DNA from: Erysipelotrichaceae bacterium
Lineage (GTDB): Bacteria; Bacillota_I; Bacilli_A; Erysipelotrichales; Erysipelotrichaceae
Length of the DNA stretch: 39,033 nt
Reading direction: 5' to 3'
Assembly: GCA_017405675.1 (NCBI GenBank)
Contig: JAFRAB010000028.1
Span: 1-39,033, forward strand
Shown here: in pieces, positions 20,037 through 25,427 of the stretch
Layout: every line of letters starts with the position of its first letter
Numbering within the stretch: position 1 is the stretch's first letter
The notes under the pieces: generated by a model
The model's database searches: none
What the model was told of the DNA's origin: nothing
The model's input: the letters and a program-made list of their open reading frames with translations, nothing else
Program-made: the position numbers and the translations under genes

Positions 20037-20296
20037 GTGGTGGTTACCTGCTTCCGATATGTTTGTAAGATAATTTTAGTACGAAAAAGAAGCGATTAAA
20101 ACTGTAATTTTTATGGTACAAAAGTTGTAAACACGGAAATAGTGTAAAATAGCCTTTATTCATAAGTTATTCGTGAGTTTTCCACAGTTATCAACAAAAT
20201 GAAAATGTGGATAATCTGTGGAAAAATATGGTGGAAAGTAAAAAAAGTTGATATTGTGGATAAAAAAGATAATAATATAAACTATCCACAGTTAAT

Positions 20297-20338
20297 AAAC
20301 ATCAAAAAAGCCTTTGTTTACGGCATATTTTGATGTTT
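20297..20338. repeat. Inverted repeat inside oriC
   Basis: Bases 20297-20307 are the exact reverse complement of 20328-20338 (11 bp), and an inner GCC/GGC pair may extend the stem. There is no T-tail appropriate to either flanking gene. Confidence 0.6.
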
Positions 20339-20364
20339 TCCACACTTTCTACACATGTGGATAA

Positions 20365-20392
20365 CCGCCTTTTCCACATATGAAAAAGGCGG
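20365..20392. repeat. GC-rich stem-loop containing a DnaA box
   Basis: Bases 20365-20373 pair with 20384-20392 (9 bp, GC-rich base) around a 10-base loop. The DnaA box at 20370-20378 lies across the 5' arm and loop. Confidence 0.6.
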
Positions 20393-20492: not shown

Positions 20493-22739
20493 TTGAAGAA
20501 ACTACTTAGTTTAGTTCTATCCTTATTAATGATATTAGCCATTGTGAGAAATGGCTGTTTCGTCATGGCTGAGGAAGGGGAAACAACGGAAAATCCGTCA
20601 GAGCAGACAGAAGAAACTGTTGAAACTCCAGAAGAAACCCCTGAAGCCCCAACCGAAACGACCGAAGTTCCTGTTGAACAGCCTGAAGAAACGGAAGTAC
20701 CTTCAGAAAATCAGTATGAACCAAAGAAGGGGTATATCAACAGCAGCATGGTTACAGTCAGACTGCAGCCAAGTACGGCTGGCGGATATCTCGAAGATGA
20801 GAACTATGGACCTCATTACGTATACAGACAGGAAGTACTGGTAATAAATGAAGCATATGATGAAAGTGACAACCTCTGGTACGAAGTAACCTTTACTGTA
20901 AATGATAAGGAATATGATACCTGGGCATTTGGAACATATGTAACGATATTAGCTGAAGGCGAAGAACCTGGTGAGATCATCGATCAGAATCCTGATGAGG
21001 AAAGGGAAGCCAGAGTAATCGAGAGTTCCGTGAGAATCAGAACAGGCCCTGGCACTGAATATCCTCAGTTCAGAATAAATAACGAAGTTCAGTATTTTAC
21101 CAAAGGCCAGACAATTTACATCCTTGCTGAAGAGAAGGATACTGATGGAGACATCTGGTACAAGGTAAGGTTCGAATTATACGGCAACGAATACGTTCAG
21201 TACATCTATTCAACTTATGCTCAGATCAAGGTAACAACGACAGATGAAAACTATGAGCAGTATCTGAATGAACAGAATTTCCCGGAAAGCTACCGTGAAT
21301 CATTAAGAGAACTGCATGCATTGTATCCGGAGTGGAACTTCATTGCTCATCATACCGGCTTGCAGTGGCAGGAAGTAGTAGACATGGAAAGCAGACTGGG
21401 ATACAGCCTTATCAGCGGCAGTAATCTGGCATACAGAAGTGTGGCTGAAGGTGCATATGACGTAGTTAATAAGAGATTCTATGTATATGACGGATCCAAC
21501 TGGTACTGTGCAAACAGAGAAACCGTCGCATATTACATTGACCCGAGAAATTTCCTGAATCAGTACAACATCTTCATGTTCCTGAATCTTTCATTCCATG
21601 AGAGTGAAACACCTGAGACAATTCAGAAACTTCTTGATTCAACATTCATGAAGGGAACTGACAGCATATCAGGAAAGACATTTGCCAACATTTTCTATGA
21701 AGCCGGACAGAGTGCCGGGGTAAGTCCGATATATCTAGCCGTACTGGCCAGACAGGAACAGGGCACTTCAGGATCAAGAGCCTGCACAGGTGAAAGCTTC
21801 ACATATAACGGCAGGACATACAGCGGATTATATAACTTCTACAACATCGGAGCCACCAGCGGTGAAGATAACTGGAAGAAGGGTCTGATCTATGCCAACG
21901 GTTCAGAAGACGGATCATATACGTCTTATAACAGACCGTGGAACAGCCCATACAAGTCAATAGTAGGCGGAGGCATGTGGATAGCTGACGGCTACATCAA
22001 CGACGGTCAGAATACGATGTATCTGCAGAAGTTCAATGTAACTGATGTAAATACATACGGACATCAGTACATGACCAACATTCAGGCAGCATATTCACAG
22101 AGCGGGGCAATGTATGATACCTATCAGATGTCAGACAGCCTGAAACAGCCATTGAATTTCAGCATACCGGTATATCAGGGAATGCCAGCAAGCACTTCCT
22201 TACCGACAACATATACATTACCGACAACTCTCGAAGAACAGAGAAACATGGAAAGTGCAAATCCGACGATCGAACCTGAGCCGGAGCCAATCGCTCCAGT
22301 TTATACGGGTGACTTCATTACAGATATGTCTCTTAAGCTTAATGAAGGATTCCTGACAGGAATTCAGATCGGTACTACATTGAAAAAGATGACCGATAAG
22401 ATCAAGTCAAGCAACGAGAACTGCACGGTAGTTATCATCGGTGCTGATGGAACTGAGCTGAACGGGGAATCAGTGATCGGTACAGGCTGTGTACTTGAAA
22501 TTACTGATGCCAGCGGAACAAGCAAGTATACGATCATCATCAGAGGTGACATCAACAGTGACGGCAAGGTCAATCTGCAGGACCTGTTACTGGTTAAGAA
22601 GAACATTCTTGGCATGAATACCTTGGAGGGCAACATGCTGAAGGCCGCCATGATCAACGGTGAGACGGAAGTAACACTGAAGACATATCTGGCCATAAAG
22701 AAGTACATTCTGGGAATGCAGGACATACCACAGGAGTAA
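20493..22739 (+). CDS. Secreted glucosaminidase with two SH3b domains and a C-terminal dockerin
   Basis: A 748-residue secreted protein. Residues 1-26 form a signal peptide ending at VMA; 27-75 are a Thr/Pro/Glu-rich linker; two bacterial SH3 domains follow (about 78-154 and 173-247); then a glucosaminidase/LytG-like lysozyme domain (about 258-545) with the conserved RQEQG (420-424, Glu422 a likely catalytic acid) and YNFYNIGA motif; a Pro/Glu linker; and a type I dockerin at 684-748. The first dockerin repeat, GDINSDGKVNLQDLLLVKK, has good calcium ligands; the second is degenerate. Start: TTG at 20493 follows GAGGGG and gives a proper signal peptide; the longer frame from 20355 runs through DnaA boxes. 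It probably cleaves peptidoglycan. The next gene encodes a cohesin protein. Confidence 0.88.
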   Translation: MKKLLSLVLSLLMILAIVRNGCFVMAEEGETTENPSEQTEETVETPEETPEAPTETTEVPVEQPEETEVPSENQYEPKKGYINSSMVTVRLQPSTAGGYLEDENYGPHYVYRQEVLVINEAYDESDNLWYEVTFTVNDKEYDTWAFGTYVTILAEGEEPGEIIDQNPDEEREARVIESSVRIRTGPGTEYPQFRINNEVQYFTKGQTIYILAEEKDTDGDIWYKVRFELYGNEYVQYIYSTYAQIKVTTTDENYEQYLNEQNFPESYRESLRELHALYPEWNFIAHHTGLQWQEVVDMESRLGYSLISGSNLAYRSVAEGAYDVVNKRFYVYDGSNWYCANRETVAYYIDPRNFLNQYNIFMFLNLSFHESETPETIQKLLDSTFMKGTDSISGKTFANIFYEAGQSAGVSPIYLAVLARQEQGTSGSRACTGESFTYNGRTYSGLYNFYNIGATSGEDNWKKGLIYANGSEDGSYTSYNRPWNSPYKSIVGGGMWIADGYINDGQNTMYLQKFNVTDVNTYGHQYMTNIQAAYSQSGAMYDTYQMSDSLKQPLNFSIPVYQGMPASTSLPTTYTLPTTLEEQRNMESANPTIEPEPEPIAPVYTGDFITDMSLKLNEGFLTGIQIGTTLKKMTDKIKSSNENCTVVIIGADGTELNGESVIGTGCVLEITDASGTSKYTIIIRGDINSDGKVNLQDLLLVKKNILGMNTLEGNMLKAAMINGETEVTLKTYLAIKKYILGMQDIPQE

Positions 22740-22755
22740 GGAGTGAAAATCGATT

Positions 22756-24114
22756 ATGAAGAAATTGCTTAAAATTACACTTCTTTCACTGTGTCTTATC
22801 ATGAGCTGCATCCATTCCTTCGATGAGGTAAAGGCTACCAGCGGAAGTACAAGTCTCTGGTCTTCATCATCATCGGTTACCGTAGGCGATACGGTAAGTG
22901 TTACGCTATCAGTTAGTGCTGACGGTCCTGTGCTTGCGCAATGTCAGATTTATTACAATTCAGGATATCTGCAATTCAGCAGCAGTTCATCAGGAGACTA
23001 CAATCCAAATACCGGAACTGTAGTAATTGATACTTATCCAAACAGCAGCGGTTCTGTTACCGTTACTTTCAAGACAATAGGCGTAGGAACGACAACGGTA
23101 TCAGCGAGTATAAATGAATTCATTGACTATGACGGCGCTAATGTCAGCGGCTATAGTGGCAGCTTAAGCACATCCATCACCATCAACCAGACCGGTGGAG
23201 GTGGTGGCGGAGGTGGAGGCGGTGGTGGCGGTGGCTACACACCGGTAACTCCAACCAAGTCAAAAGATGCCACACTAAGTGACATCACCATAGATGGATT
23301 TGAGATCGAACCTGGCTTCTCCAGTGACGTTTATGATTACAAGGTATATGTTCCAAGAGGAACTGAGTCACTTGACATTTCTGCTGATAAGAGCAGCAGC
23401 AAGGCCAGCGTTTCCAGCATTGACGGCAGCGTTGAACCGGGATGGAATGAAATAAACATCAAGGTCACGGCTGAAGATGATGACTACACCAGAACATATA
23501 CGCTGAATGTATACGTCGATGAGGAACCAACCGTATTCTATACACTCAATGATCAGCAGCTGGGTGTCGTAAAGAACCTGGATAAGGTTGCGATATATCC
23601 TGAACACGAGGCAAGAGATCTGGAGATCGAAGGCAATAAGCTGACGGTGTTCAACTGGAAGGCTTATGATGTGATCTATCTTGAGGACAGTGAACAGAAC
23701 AGAGACTTCTATCTCTACAGTGAACACGACAACACGGTTATCGGCAAGTACAGACCGGTGGAAATCGTAGGCAGAAAATTCATTCAGCCGGATGTCGTAT
23801 ATGAAAACTTCCCTGATCTGGCGGAATTGTTTGAACCGGCCAAGGTCAGGATCGGTGATGACATCGAAATGGATGGCTGGCAGTACAAGGATCCGCAGCT
23901 GTATGATTTCAAGCTCATATATCTCGGTGACGAGAACGGCGAAATGAAACTGTATACCATAGACCTTACGGAGCAGACTCTGCAAAGGTATGTGGTACCG
24001 GAAGTTGAGGAAGTTATAGATTATAAACCGTACATATTCTTCTCAGCAGCAGTTGCCGGTGCAGTGACATTGCTGTTAGCATTCATAGCCATAGGCAGAA
24101 AAAAGACGAATTGA
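22756..24114 (+). CDS. Membrane-anchored cohesin protein with cadherin-like beta-sandwich domain
   Basis: A 452-residue surface protein. A signal peptide (1-27) is followed by a cohesin-like beta-sandwich (about 30-145; VTVGDTVSVTLSVS, LAQCQIYYNSGYLQFSS, VTVTFKTIGVGTTTVSAS), a run of 14 glycines (147-160), a cadherin-like/Ig-type beta-sandwich domain (168-254; ATLSDITIDGFEIEPGFSSDVYDYKVYVP-like pattern), an unassigned 160-residue region, a C-terminal transmembrane helix (about 425-447) and a short RKK cytoplasmic tail. It lies 16 bases after the dockerin gene, so they are very likely one operon, and the cohesin is the obvious candidate receptor for that dockerin. Cohesin assignment is by pattern and would need a profile search. 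Confidence 0.78.
   Translation: MKKLLKITLLSLCLIMSCIHSFDEVKATSGSTSLWSSSSSVTVGDTVSVTLSVSADGPVLAQCQIYYNSGYLQFSSSSSGDYNPNTGTVVIDTYPNSSGSVTVTFKTIGVGTTTVSASINEFIDYDGANVSGYSGSLSTSITINQTGGGGGGGGGGGGGGYTPVTPTKSKDATLSDITIDGFEIEPGFSSDVYDYKVYVPRGTESLDISADKSSSKASVSSIDGSVEPGWNEINIKVTAEDDDYTRTYTLNVYVDEEPTVFYTLNDQQLGVVKNLDKVAIYPEHEARDLEIEGNKLTVFNWKAYDVIYLEDSEQNRDFYLYSEHDNTVIGKYRPVEIVGRKFIQPDVVYENFPDLAELFEPAKVRIGDDIEMDGWQYKDPQLYDFKLIYLGDENGEMKLYTIDLTEQTLQRYVVPEVEEVIDYKPYIFFSAAVAGAVTLLLAFIAIGRKKTN
23194..23235 (+). repeat. (GGN)14 codon repeat
   Basis: Fourteen consecutive glycine codons, varied at the third base, encode a flexible linker between the cohesin and cadherin-like domains. Confidence 0.9.
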
Positions 24115-24197: not shown

Positions 24198-25427
24198 ATG
24201 GATGAAAAAAACTTTAATGAAGAAATTAATGAAGAAAGTAATTTAAATGATGAAACTAACTTAAGCGAAGAATCATACCTTAAAGATGAAAAGACATACT
24301 CCGGTAACGTATATACAGTCTATCCACCTGAAAAGAAGGAAAAGAACAGACACGTTCCGATGATCCTCTGGCTGGTATTCTCATTATTACTGTGCATGGG
24401 CAGCAGTTTTCTGACTGCCAGATATGTAATGAACAAGATGCAGAAGGATAACTCCGGATCAACGGTAATCTATGAAGCCGTACCGACAGATACTGTCGTA
24501 TATCAGTCATCAGATCTTTCAGGAATCGTTTCTGAAATAGAAAATTCAGTAGTAGAAGTTTATACGGAATCAGTAAAGTACAACACGTTCTTCGGTGAAT
24601 ATGTTACTTCCGGTGCCGGAAGCGGTGTCATCTGCTCAAGCGATGGCTACATCATTACCAACAATCACGTAATCGAGGATGCCAAGAGCATCAGAGTTAC
24701 GCTGCATGACGGTACTGACTATTCAGCCGTACTGATTGGAACGGACTCAATTACTGACCTGGCAGTCATCAAGATCGATGCGCAGGGTCTGACACCGGCA
24801 ACTCTTGGAAGCGACAGCACTGTAAAGGTTGGAGAAACCTGCATTGCCATCGGTAACCCGTTGGGAACACTGGGTGGAACCGTTACATCAGGAATCGTAA
24901 GTGCCTTGAGCCGTACTATTACGGTAGACGGACAGAAGATGACACTGATGCAGACGAATACCACGATCAACCCGGGCAACTCCGGCGGCGGACTGTTTGA
25001 TGTTTCCGGAAATCTGATTGGCATCGTAAATGCCAAGTATTCATCAAGCGACATTGAAGGAATCGGCTTTGCCATCCCTGTAGACGTAGTCAAGGAGATC
25101 ACTCAGGAACTGATTACCAATGGCAAGGTTACCGGCAGGGCATATCTGGGCATCAAAGCCATCAGCATTGACAGCGAAAGAGCTCAGAGCTACTATGGCA
25201 TGTCCCAGAACGGCGTACTGGTAAGATCAGTAGAACTCCAGTCAACCATATCCTCAGGCCTTCAGACCAAGGACCTGATCATCGGCATGGACGATGACGA
25301 AATCAGATCATATGATGACCTGCAGGATGCCTTGCTGAAACGTAAGGCCGGAGACAAGGTTACTCTGAAGATCATCAGAGACAATCAGGAAAAGGAATTA
25401 AGCGTAGTACTGGCAGAAAGGCCTTAA
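24198..25427 (+). CDS. HtrA/DegP-like trypsin-type serine protease with PDZ domain
   Basis: A membrane-anchored protein quality-control protease, 409 residues. An acidic, Asn-rich cytoplasmic N-terminus (1-50) precedes one transmembrane helix (53-76). The chymotrypsin-fold domain (about 105-305) carries the triad H157 (NNHVIED), D187 (ITDLAVIKI) and S262 (PGNSGGGLF). A PDZ domain (about 315-405) follows. This is the standard layout of Gram-positive HtrA/HtrB. It has its own probable promoter and terminator. Placement directly after a surface assembly module suggests a role in folding or turnover of exported proteins, though htrA near oriC is common in Firmicutes. Confidence 0.93.
   Translation: MDEKNFNEEINEESNLNDETNLSEESYLKDEKTYSGNVYTVYPPEKKEKNRHVPMILWLVFSLLLCMGSSFLTARYVMNKMQKDNSGSTVIYEAVPTDTVVYQSSDLSGIVSEIENSVVEVYTESVKYNTFFGEYVTSGAGSGVICSSDGYIITNNHVIEDAKSIRVTLHDGTDYSAVLIGTDSITDLAVIKIDAQGLTPATLGSDSTVKVGETCIAIGNPLGTLGGTVTSGIVSALSRTITVDGQKMTLMQTNTTINPGNSGGGLFDVSGNLIGIVNAKYSSSDIEGIGFAIPVDVVKEITQELITNGKVTGRAYLGIKAISIDSERAQSYYGMSQNGVLVRSVELQSTISSGLQTKDLIIGMDDDEIRSYDDLQDALLKRKAGDKVTLKIIRDNQEKELSVVLAERP

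Follow-up and report, generated by a model that had tools for sequence, protein, structure and literature searches.

A conserved dockerin-cohesin gene pair that may tether cell-wall hydrolases to the membrane in Erysipelotrichaceae and related bacteria

In a 39,033-nucleotide stretch of DNA from Erysipelotrichaceae bacterium (assembly GCA_017405675.1, contig JAFRAB010000028.1; hereafter the window), we analysed two adjacent genes, the open reading frames ORF1 and ORF2, which lie on the + strand with 16 bases between them. To judge from sequence and structure prediction, ORF1 is exported and combines SH3b domains, a glucosaminidase fold and a C-terminal dockerin, and ORF2 is a membrane protein whose single, divergent cohesin is joined by a glycine linker to cadherin-like and duplicated juxtamembrane domains beneath it. 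It is fairly likely that the two form a dedicated two-protein complex, in which a tether (ORF2) keeps a wall hydrolase, its cargo (ORF1), at the cell's own membrane. Among the parts of this proposal, binding of the ORF1 dockerin to the ORF2 cohesin appears very likely from the sequence comparisons, a role of ORF2 as membrane tether of the enzyme is likely, and action of the enzyme on nascent or membrane-proximal wall has about an even chance. The features of the two genes are as follows (pLDDT, predicted local distance difference test; HMM, hidden Markov model).

20493..22739, + strand: ORF1, 748 amino acids, TTG start; secreted SH3b-SH3b-glucosaminidase-dockerin protein (cargo)
20715..20951, + strand: ORF1 first SH3b domain, about residues 75-153 (predicted structure)
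20988..21236, + strand: ORF1 second SH3b domain, about residues 166-248 (predicted structure; Pfam SH3_3 E 0.011, under cut-off)
21300..22181, + strand: ORF1 glucosaminidase catalytic domain, residues 270-563 (sequence and predicted structure)
22326..22535, + strand: ORF1 small module before the dockerin, residues 612-681 (HMM XMOD matches; pLDDT mostly >=84)
22536..22733, + strand: ORF1 dockerin, residues 682-747 (Pfam, predicted structure)
22756..24114, + strand: ORF2, 452 amino acids; membrane-anchored cohesin protein (tether)
22840..23193, + strand: ORF2 cohesin domain, residues 29-146, nine predicted strands (family profile, predicted structure, fold comparison)
23194..23235, + strand: ORF2 linker of 14 glycines, residues 147-160 (sequence; pLDDT <50 at 148-163)
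23275..23514, + strand: ORF2 Cadherin-like beta-sandwich PF12733, residues 174-253 (Pfam)
23527..23991, + strand: ORF2 duplicated all-beta juxtamembrane domain, residues 258-412 (a tandem of two ~75-residue repeats)
24025..24108, + strand: ORF2 C-terminal transmembrane helix, residues 424-451, with a basic end (N-terminus presumably outside)

A preliminary description of this DNA had given ORF1 as a signal peptide, two SH3b domains, a glucosaminidase domain and a C-terminal dockerin, and ORF2, 16 bases downstream, as a cohesin-like domain, a 14-glycine linker, a cadherin-like domain and a C-terminal helix. Both layouts were confirmed, that of ORF1 by sequence and predicted structure. Glucosaminidases cleave the glycan backbone of peptidoglycan, and ORF1 has the catalytic fold and the catalytic glutamate of the GH73-like kind, with Glu422 aligned to Glu138 of AtlE and invariant in 54/54 relatives. 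Against the SagB model (NF052642), ORF1 scored 51.3 bits, well under the curated cut-off of 425. Dockerins typically have calcium ligands in both loops, although the fold seen here does not require them; the ORF1 dockerin shows the two helix-loop-helix repeats of the type I fold (PF00404), with Asp686, Asp690 and Asp697 of loop 1 invariant in all 50 cargos compared, and its loop 2 is degenerate, the calcium ligands having been lost. Some GH25 and amidase cargos likewise carry a module of the 612-681 kind ahead of their dockerin (HMM XMOD).

The N-terminal domain of ORF2 adopts, in the predicted structure, the nine-stranded jelly-roll fold of cohesins (PF00963), as had been proposed, rather than another fold. 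Its nearest cohesin folds are those of C. perfringens when the domain is compared by itself; with the entire ORF2 model as query, Foldseek returned a mixture of beta-sandwich proteins in which a cohesin first appeared at rank 12, after which the domain was separated. The matches in a single-sequence search of PDB with ORF2 were mainly antibody constructs, an artefact of the glycine run, and the family profile used instead retrieves PDB cohesins with E 3.8e-4, antibody light chains also being among the matches. Pfam Cohesin at 1e-3 is passed by 10 of 52 ORF2 family members, and three homologues (L060, L083 and L087) carry two cohesin-HMM stretches each. The juxtamembrane domain (258-412) had no sequence match in Pfam or PDB. 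This repeat domain is also present in proteins without a cohesin domain at L097 and L098.

The gene pair is conserved. Our survey covered 195 genomes of the order, all at least 90% complete but for the nearest genome (G001) at 89%, and it yielded at least 57 strong ORF2 homologues (E <= 1e-50) in 47 genomes of the order, where up to eight first-look candidates per genome were scored and extra copies may escape. In 52 of these 57 (40 read in fetched loci, 12 from other loci or coordinates), the gene immediately upstream, with the same orientation, encodes a dockerin protein. Two of the remaining homologues are at contig ends (G021, and G137, which also has stops). The other three (G031, G032 and the second copy in G084) have no dockerin neighbour, and they also lack the N-terminal cohesin domain, the cadherin-like domain starting within the first 50 residues. 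Automatic classing of 46 evaluable fetched loci, including three (L104, L114 and L116) that fall outside the 57, placed a dockerin beside 42/42 homologues with the N-domain and 0/4 without it (Fisher p 6e-6), although the loci are related by descent and such counts are hence not independent. The automatic class of L083 as lacking the N-domain was rejected, because the domain was found by reading and the upstream amidase ends in a degenerate dockerin; after reclassing, the figures are 43/43 versus 0/3. Beyond the order, the pair occurs in 6/6 loci of a family of the window's class (f11), which was chosen for inspection on account of its good score. The genomes listed by a phylum search, from which 205 of 295 without a match were absent, included none outside the window's class; some protein matches bear Lachnospiraceae names, pointing to Clostridia. 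The window's ORF2 protein itself is 100% identical to a copy in RUG521 ('uncultured Firmicutes') and 85% identical to one in RGIG5726 ('Erysipelotrichaceae'), which points to an uncultured relative of Firmicutes from rumen and sheep ileum as the source. An ORF2 homologue (P0015) also occurs in Massilimicrobiota sp. An80.

The cargo nearly always belongs to a wall-hydrolase family. We scanned 50 dockerin proteins, namely those directly upstream of ORF2-type genes in the fetched loci and that of the window, leaving out L063, whose dockerin is partly masked. Peptidoglycan-hydrolase families account for 47 of them, and 46 pass Pfam Dockerin at 1e-3. By Pfam, 28 have a PF01832 glucosaminidase domain, three an amidase, two a GH25 muramidase and three a metallo-beta-lactamase fold, and none matches a plant-fibre family at E <= 1e-3. 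A local search divided the same set into 14 glucosaminidases of the window type and 28 of the type seen at L057, with zero overlap, and eight others. Since the same kind of tether adjoins another glucosaminidase type, a GH25 muramidase and an amidase, the anchor seems to be of general use and the enzyme interchangeable. Dockerins also occur in proteins whose genes do not immediately precede a tether gene, among them a GH25 protein at L069, an M6 peptidase at L075 and some large proteins.

Several further observations concern the cargos and their tethers. Dockerin-bearing hydrolases of metallo-beta-lactamase fold stand beside the same kind of tether at L071:5399-6646, L074:5136-6353 and L076:7752-9056. 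One genome (G071) has five consecutive dockerin-bearing genes at L115:1-11217, with no ORF2-type tether within the fetched stretch. In another genome (G200), two tethers with identical cohesin alignments and a near-identical remainder lie beside an amidase (L093) and a glucosaminidase (L094), and their likeness looks like recent duplication or gene conversion. Finally, at two loci of the f11 family (L135:1178-2929 and L137:4018-5802), the glucosaminidase domain is apparently circularly permuted, with profile positions 222-316 or 226-316 placed before 2-227 or 2-222, and in the remaining four of the six loci it has the normal order.

The dockerins and cohesins also vary together. For 41 dockerin-cohesin pairs (again without L063, and without L061, which has a split ORF2 homologue and is in the cargo count), the two distance matrices correlated with r 0.676 and with a partial correlation of 0.596. 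The dockerins gave r 0.42 with the cadherin-like domain and 0.44 with the C-terminal domain of the tether, and the cohesins gave 0.41 and 0.43 with these domains of their own chain. The link was 0.637 among 221 locus pairs of different cargo, and 0.544 among distant pairs, for which dockerin and cadherin-like domain gave 0.159. The signal peptide, whose coding sequence lies between those of dockerin and cohesin, follows neither of them (0.06 and 0.19). This argues against a recombination tract alone as the cause, an exclusion that is partial as signal peptides are fast-varying. The dockerin columns that best track the cohesin are position 17 of both repeats. At positions 10, 11, 17, 18 and 22 of each repeat, which we take from the cellulosome literature to be the classical recognition positions, covariation with the cohesin averaged 0.258 versus 0.144 for the rest (p 0.0017; variability-matched p 0.004), and the same positions showed no excess with the C-terminal or the cadherin-like domain as target (p 0.77 and 0.90). 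Furthermore, five genomes have two pairs each, and within these genomes the two cohesins differ widely (distance 0.73-0.92), as do the two dockerins (0.58-0.68).

Several results weigh against a dedicated ORF1-ORF2 complex. The profile check of the N-domain against cohesin families came out divided, the family profile finding PDB cohesins and the window protein itself reaching only 17.5 bits with Pfam Cohesin (PF00963; cut-off 24.1). Nine to ten of 42 relatives with an N-domain have no match to our own cohesin HMM, so that the domain is assigned there from its position, and some others match only weakly. Three of the 50 cargos are no known wall hydrolases. As for covariation, a nearest-neighbour comparison discriminates less well: the locus closest by dockerin is also closest by cohesin in 23 of 41 cases, as compared to 19 by the cadherin-like and 20 by the C-terminal domain. 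Once the cohesin is removed, the dockerin still correlates with the C-terminal domain (0.22) and with the cadherin-like domain (0.21), a sign of shared ancestry. Moreover, the set of recognition positions was picked once the column ranking had been seen, and position 22 of repeat 1 scores just 0.04. The nearest genome, G001, contains in addition a 1901-amino-acid subtilase with a Pfam cohesin match of 25.1 bits near its C-terminus and a hydrophobic end (Cohesin was not listed for it at 1e-3 in the whole-protein scan), and a 335-amino-acid cohesin-like, cadherin-like membrane protein without a dockerin neighbour, which matched no Pfam family at 0.01. These extra candidates mean that the pair may not be exclusive.

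The latter proteins lead to an alternative that we regard as unlikely, a wider surface network in which the ORF1 dockerin docks on several cohesins (ORF2, the subtilase and the 335-amino-acid protein), much as surface enzymes of C. perfringens do, ORF2 being one partner among several. Other Pfam cohesin matches occur in G001, G006, G007 (under cut-off), G008 and G009, where the G009 protein is a subtilase with a Cohesin E value of 5.1e-9, and the C-termini of the G001, G006, G007 and G009 proteins and a G008 fragment are alike, ending in a hydrophobic stretch. A GH31-FIVAR protein of G119 has a Cohesin match at 2.3e-7, and a GH31-FIVAR-like protein of G015 had a Pfam cohesin match in one search and none at 1e-3 in the whole-protein scan. 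With one dockerin match each in G001, G007 and G008, this single dockerin may have more than one partner. However, gene adjacency and covariation favour the neighbour as main partner, the cohesin HMM built from the ORF2 family had no match in the six large proteins or fragments tried, and two genomes with the pair (G028 and G030) have zero Pfam cohesin matches even at E <= 1. As observations in their own right, the gene at L121:1603-7305 encodes a large subtilase in which a cohesin-like stretch lies towards the hydrophobic C-terminal end, its C-terminus resembling those in G006, G007, G008 (fragment) and G009, and the subtilase domain was confirmed in L121 and L124 alone. Membrane proteins of 335-353 amino acids that are cohesin-like (by eye) and cadherin-like, without an adjoining dockerin gene, occur in two genera (L138:3241-4245, L139:4771-5805, L140:4934-5974 and L141:4970-6028).

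An outward role, as a weapon or scavenging tool on other bacteria rather than on the own wall, seems improbable. Such a 'lyticome' was floated in a review, in passages after the dockerin-bearing wall hydrolases of R. champanellensis (PMC6403190), and gut and rumen habitats are competitive, but a transmembrane-helix anchor with a short estimated reach leaves most of the own wall between enzyme and outside, and ORF2 has a single cohesin and is no multi-cohesin scaffold. Still less credence, very little indeed, goes to the view that the two are neighbouring genes only, sharing an operon for expression while the dockerin has its partner elsewhere and the N-domain of ORF2 serves as a mere spacer of Ig-like fold. 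Against it stand the cohesin rank of this domain in the fold comparison, the family members that pass Pfam Cohesin, the joint absence of dockerin and cohesin domain, and the covariation at recognition sites.

The surroundings of the pair in the window say less about its function. The gene upstream of ORF1 is presumably dnaA, named from its sequence, and the interval between them (20178-20378) holds nine DnaA-box-like 9-mers, three exact and six with one mismatch. The whole window has 17 such 9-mers, a number reached by 19 of 100 shuffles (mean 13.3), nine of the 17 lying within these 201 bases, and the cluster is, by its sequence, a probable oriC. Downstream of ORF2 is a gene that in two genera belongs to the arrangement as its third member:

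24198..25427, + strand: HtrA-like membrane serine protease

Homologues of dnaA, ORF1, ORF2 and htrA stand together in 7/7 loci of these genera (L066-L068, L085, L086, L100 and L101), and in the rest of the stretches fetched between L057 and L116 the same query matched neither dnaA nor htrA. The earlier suggestion that a place beside oriC speaks for a core function is thus weak, and we rejected it as general evidence; because dnaA adjoins the pair in just two genera among the fetched loci, the setting more likely reflects lineage history than a functional clue.

Single cohesins that recruit one enzyme outside the cellulosome are among the nearest known parallels to this arrangement. Like proteins of the OlpA/OlpC kind (names taken from PDB titles), and as in C. 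perfringens, ORF2 has one cohesin on a surface-anchored protein. The anchoring of OlpA and OlpC to the wall is SLH-type. In contrast, the Pfam scan of the window pair found no SLH domain, and a hydrophobic helix is in its place; ORF2 would thus work like OlpA/OlpC, yet it is not a member. Unlike cellulosomes with a multi-cohesin scaffoldin and many enzymes, ORF2 has one cohesin and G001 (89% complete) one dockerin match, and Pfam gave no plant-fibre family (E <= 1e-3) for the 50 neighbouring cargos. GH48 exoglucanase was found in 0/43 pair-bearing genomes, a search in which control genomes likewise gave no match. The tether is most likely dedicated and non-cellulosomal.

Excerpts of PMC5429695 describe non-cellulosomal cohesins that recruit single enzymes, in surface proteins of C. 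thermocellum and a two-protein toxin of C. perfringens, with dockerins that bind in a single mode; the asymmetric dockerin of ORF1 suggests the same. Unlike those systems, the present one has peptidoglycan-hydrolase cargo, adjacent co-varying genes, and a transmembrane-helix anchor behind cadherin-like and undescribed duplicated domains. Dockerins joined to wall-hydrolase families are also reported in ruminococci: sections of PMC6403190 mention lysozyme activity and dockerin-bearing wall hydrolases of the R. champanellensis cellulosome, and an R. albus table of dockerin or CBM37 proteins has GH25 and GH73 rows (PMC4081043). In these sections the enzymes go with plant-fibre scaffoldins or their role is left open, whereas here cohesin and enzyme genes adjoin. 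The S. aureus SagB-SpdC complex, which according to parts of PMC12272431 cleaves nascent peptidoglycan from a membrane anchor, is the likeliest functional parallel, in that a second membrane protein retains a glucosaminidase of the same fold at the membrane; that account involves no cohesin-dockerin contact, SpdC being a membrane protein of the CAAX-protease family. A passage of PMC6118326 called genomes most likely non-cellulosomal if they had few dockerins but lacked a recognised cohesin, and portions of PMC4035507 count Erysipelotrichaceae among the families whose dockerin and cohesin sequences have an uncertain role. For such orphans of 'non-cellulosomal' Firmicutes the pair offers a role, with cohesins under the Pfam cut-off beside wall hydrolases. 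A description of this pair was not found in searches of the open-licence PMC literature, most subscription papers lying outside it. Thus, the parts and the recruitment of single enzymes are already known, and a gene-linked, co-varying membrane tether for wall hydrolases looks new.

The tethering of a wall hydrolase through cohesin and dockerin, as put forward in the preliminary description, gains from fold, conserved pairing, cargo type and covariation; the binding itself we infer. In this mechanism, the dockerin would plug into the ORF2 cohesin via one face, probably in a calcium-dependent manner, and the enzyme would stay at the membrane of its own cell rather than diffuse away through the wall. 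The three beta domains and the glycine linker might together span very roughly 15-20 nm (an estimate), as far as the inner wall, so that newly made peptidoglycan close to the membrane would be the enzyme's substrate, with shorter strands or a looser wall as the outcome.

In summary, our results suggest that the assembly principle of the cellulosome also serves to hold wall-cutting enzymes near the cell's own membrane. A broader picture could as easily hold as fail: many gut Bacilli, and possibly Clostridia, may use a private, evolving lock-and-key to clip exchangeable hydrolases to their own membrane, with lock and key changing together, enzymes being swapped, the membrane part having a separate history, and the pairs of two-pair genomes kept apart by specificity. 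Cohesins and dockerins are mostly taken as a sign of plant-fibre breakdown, and this pair offers a testable other role. If this is true, membrane tethering of wall hydrolases would be a general non-cellulosomal use of cohesin and dockerin that would explain many orphan dockerins, Gram-positive bacteria would have a further way, with exchangeable parts, to hold dangerous hydrolases in place, and the natural, apparently distinct binding pairs would be a set useful in protein assembly.

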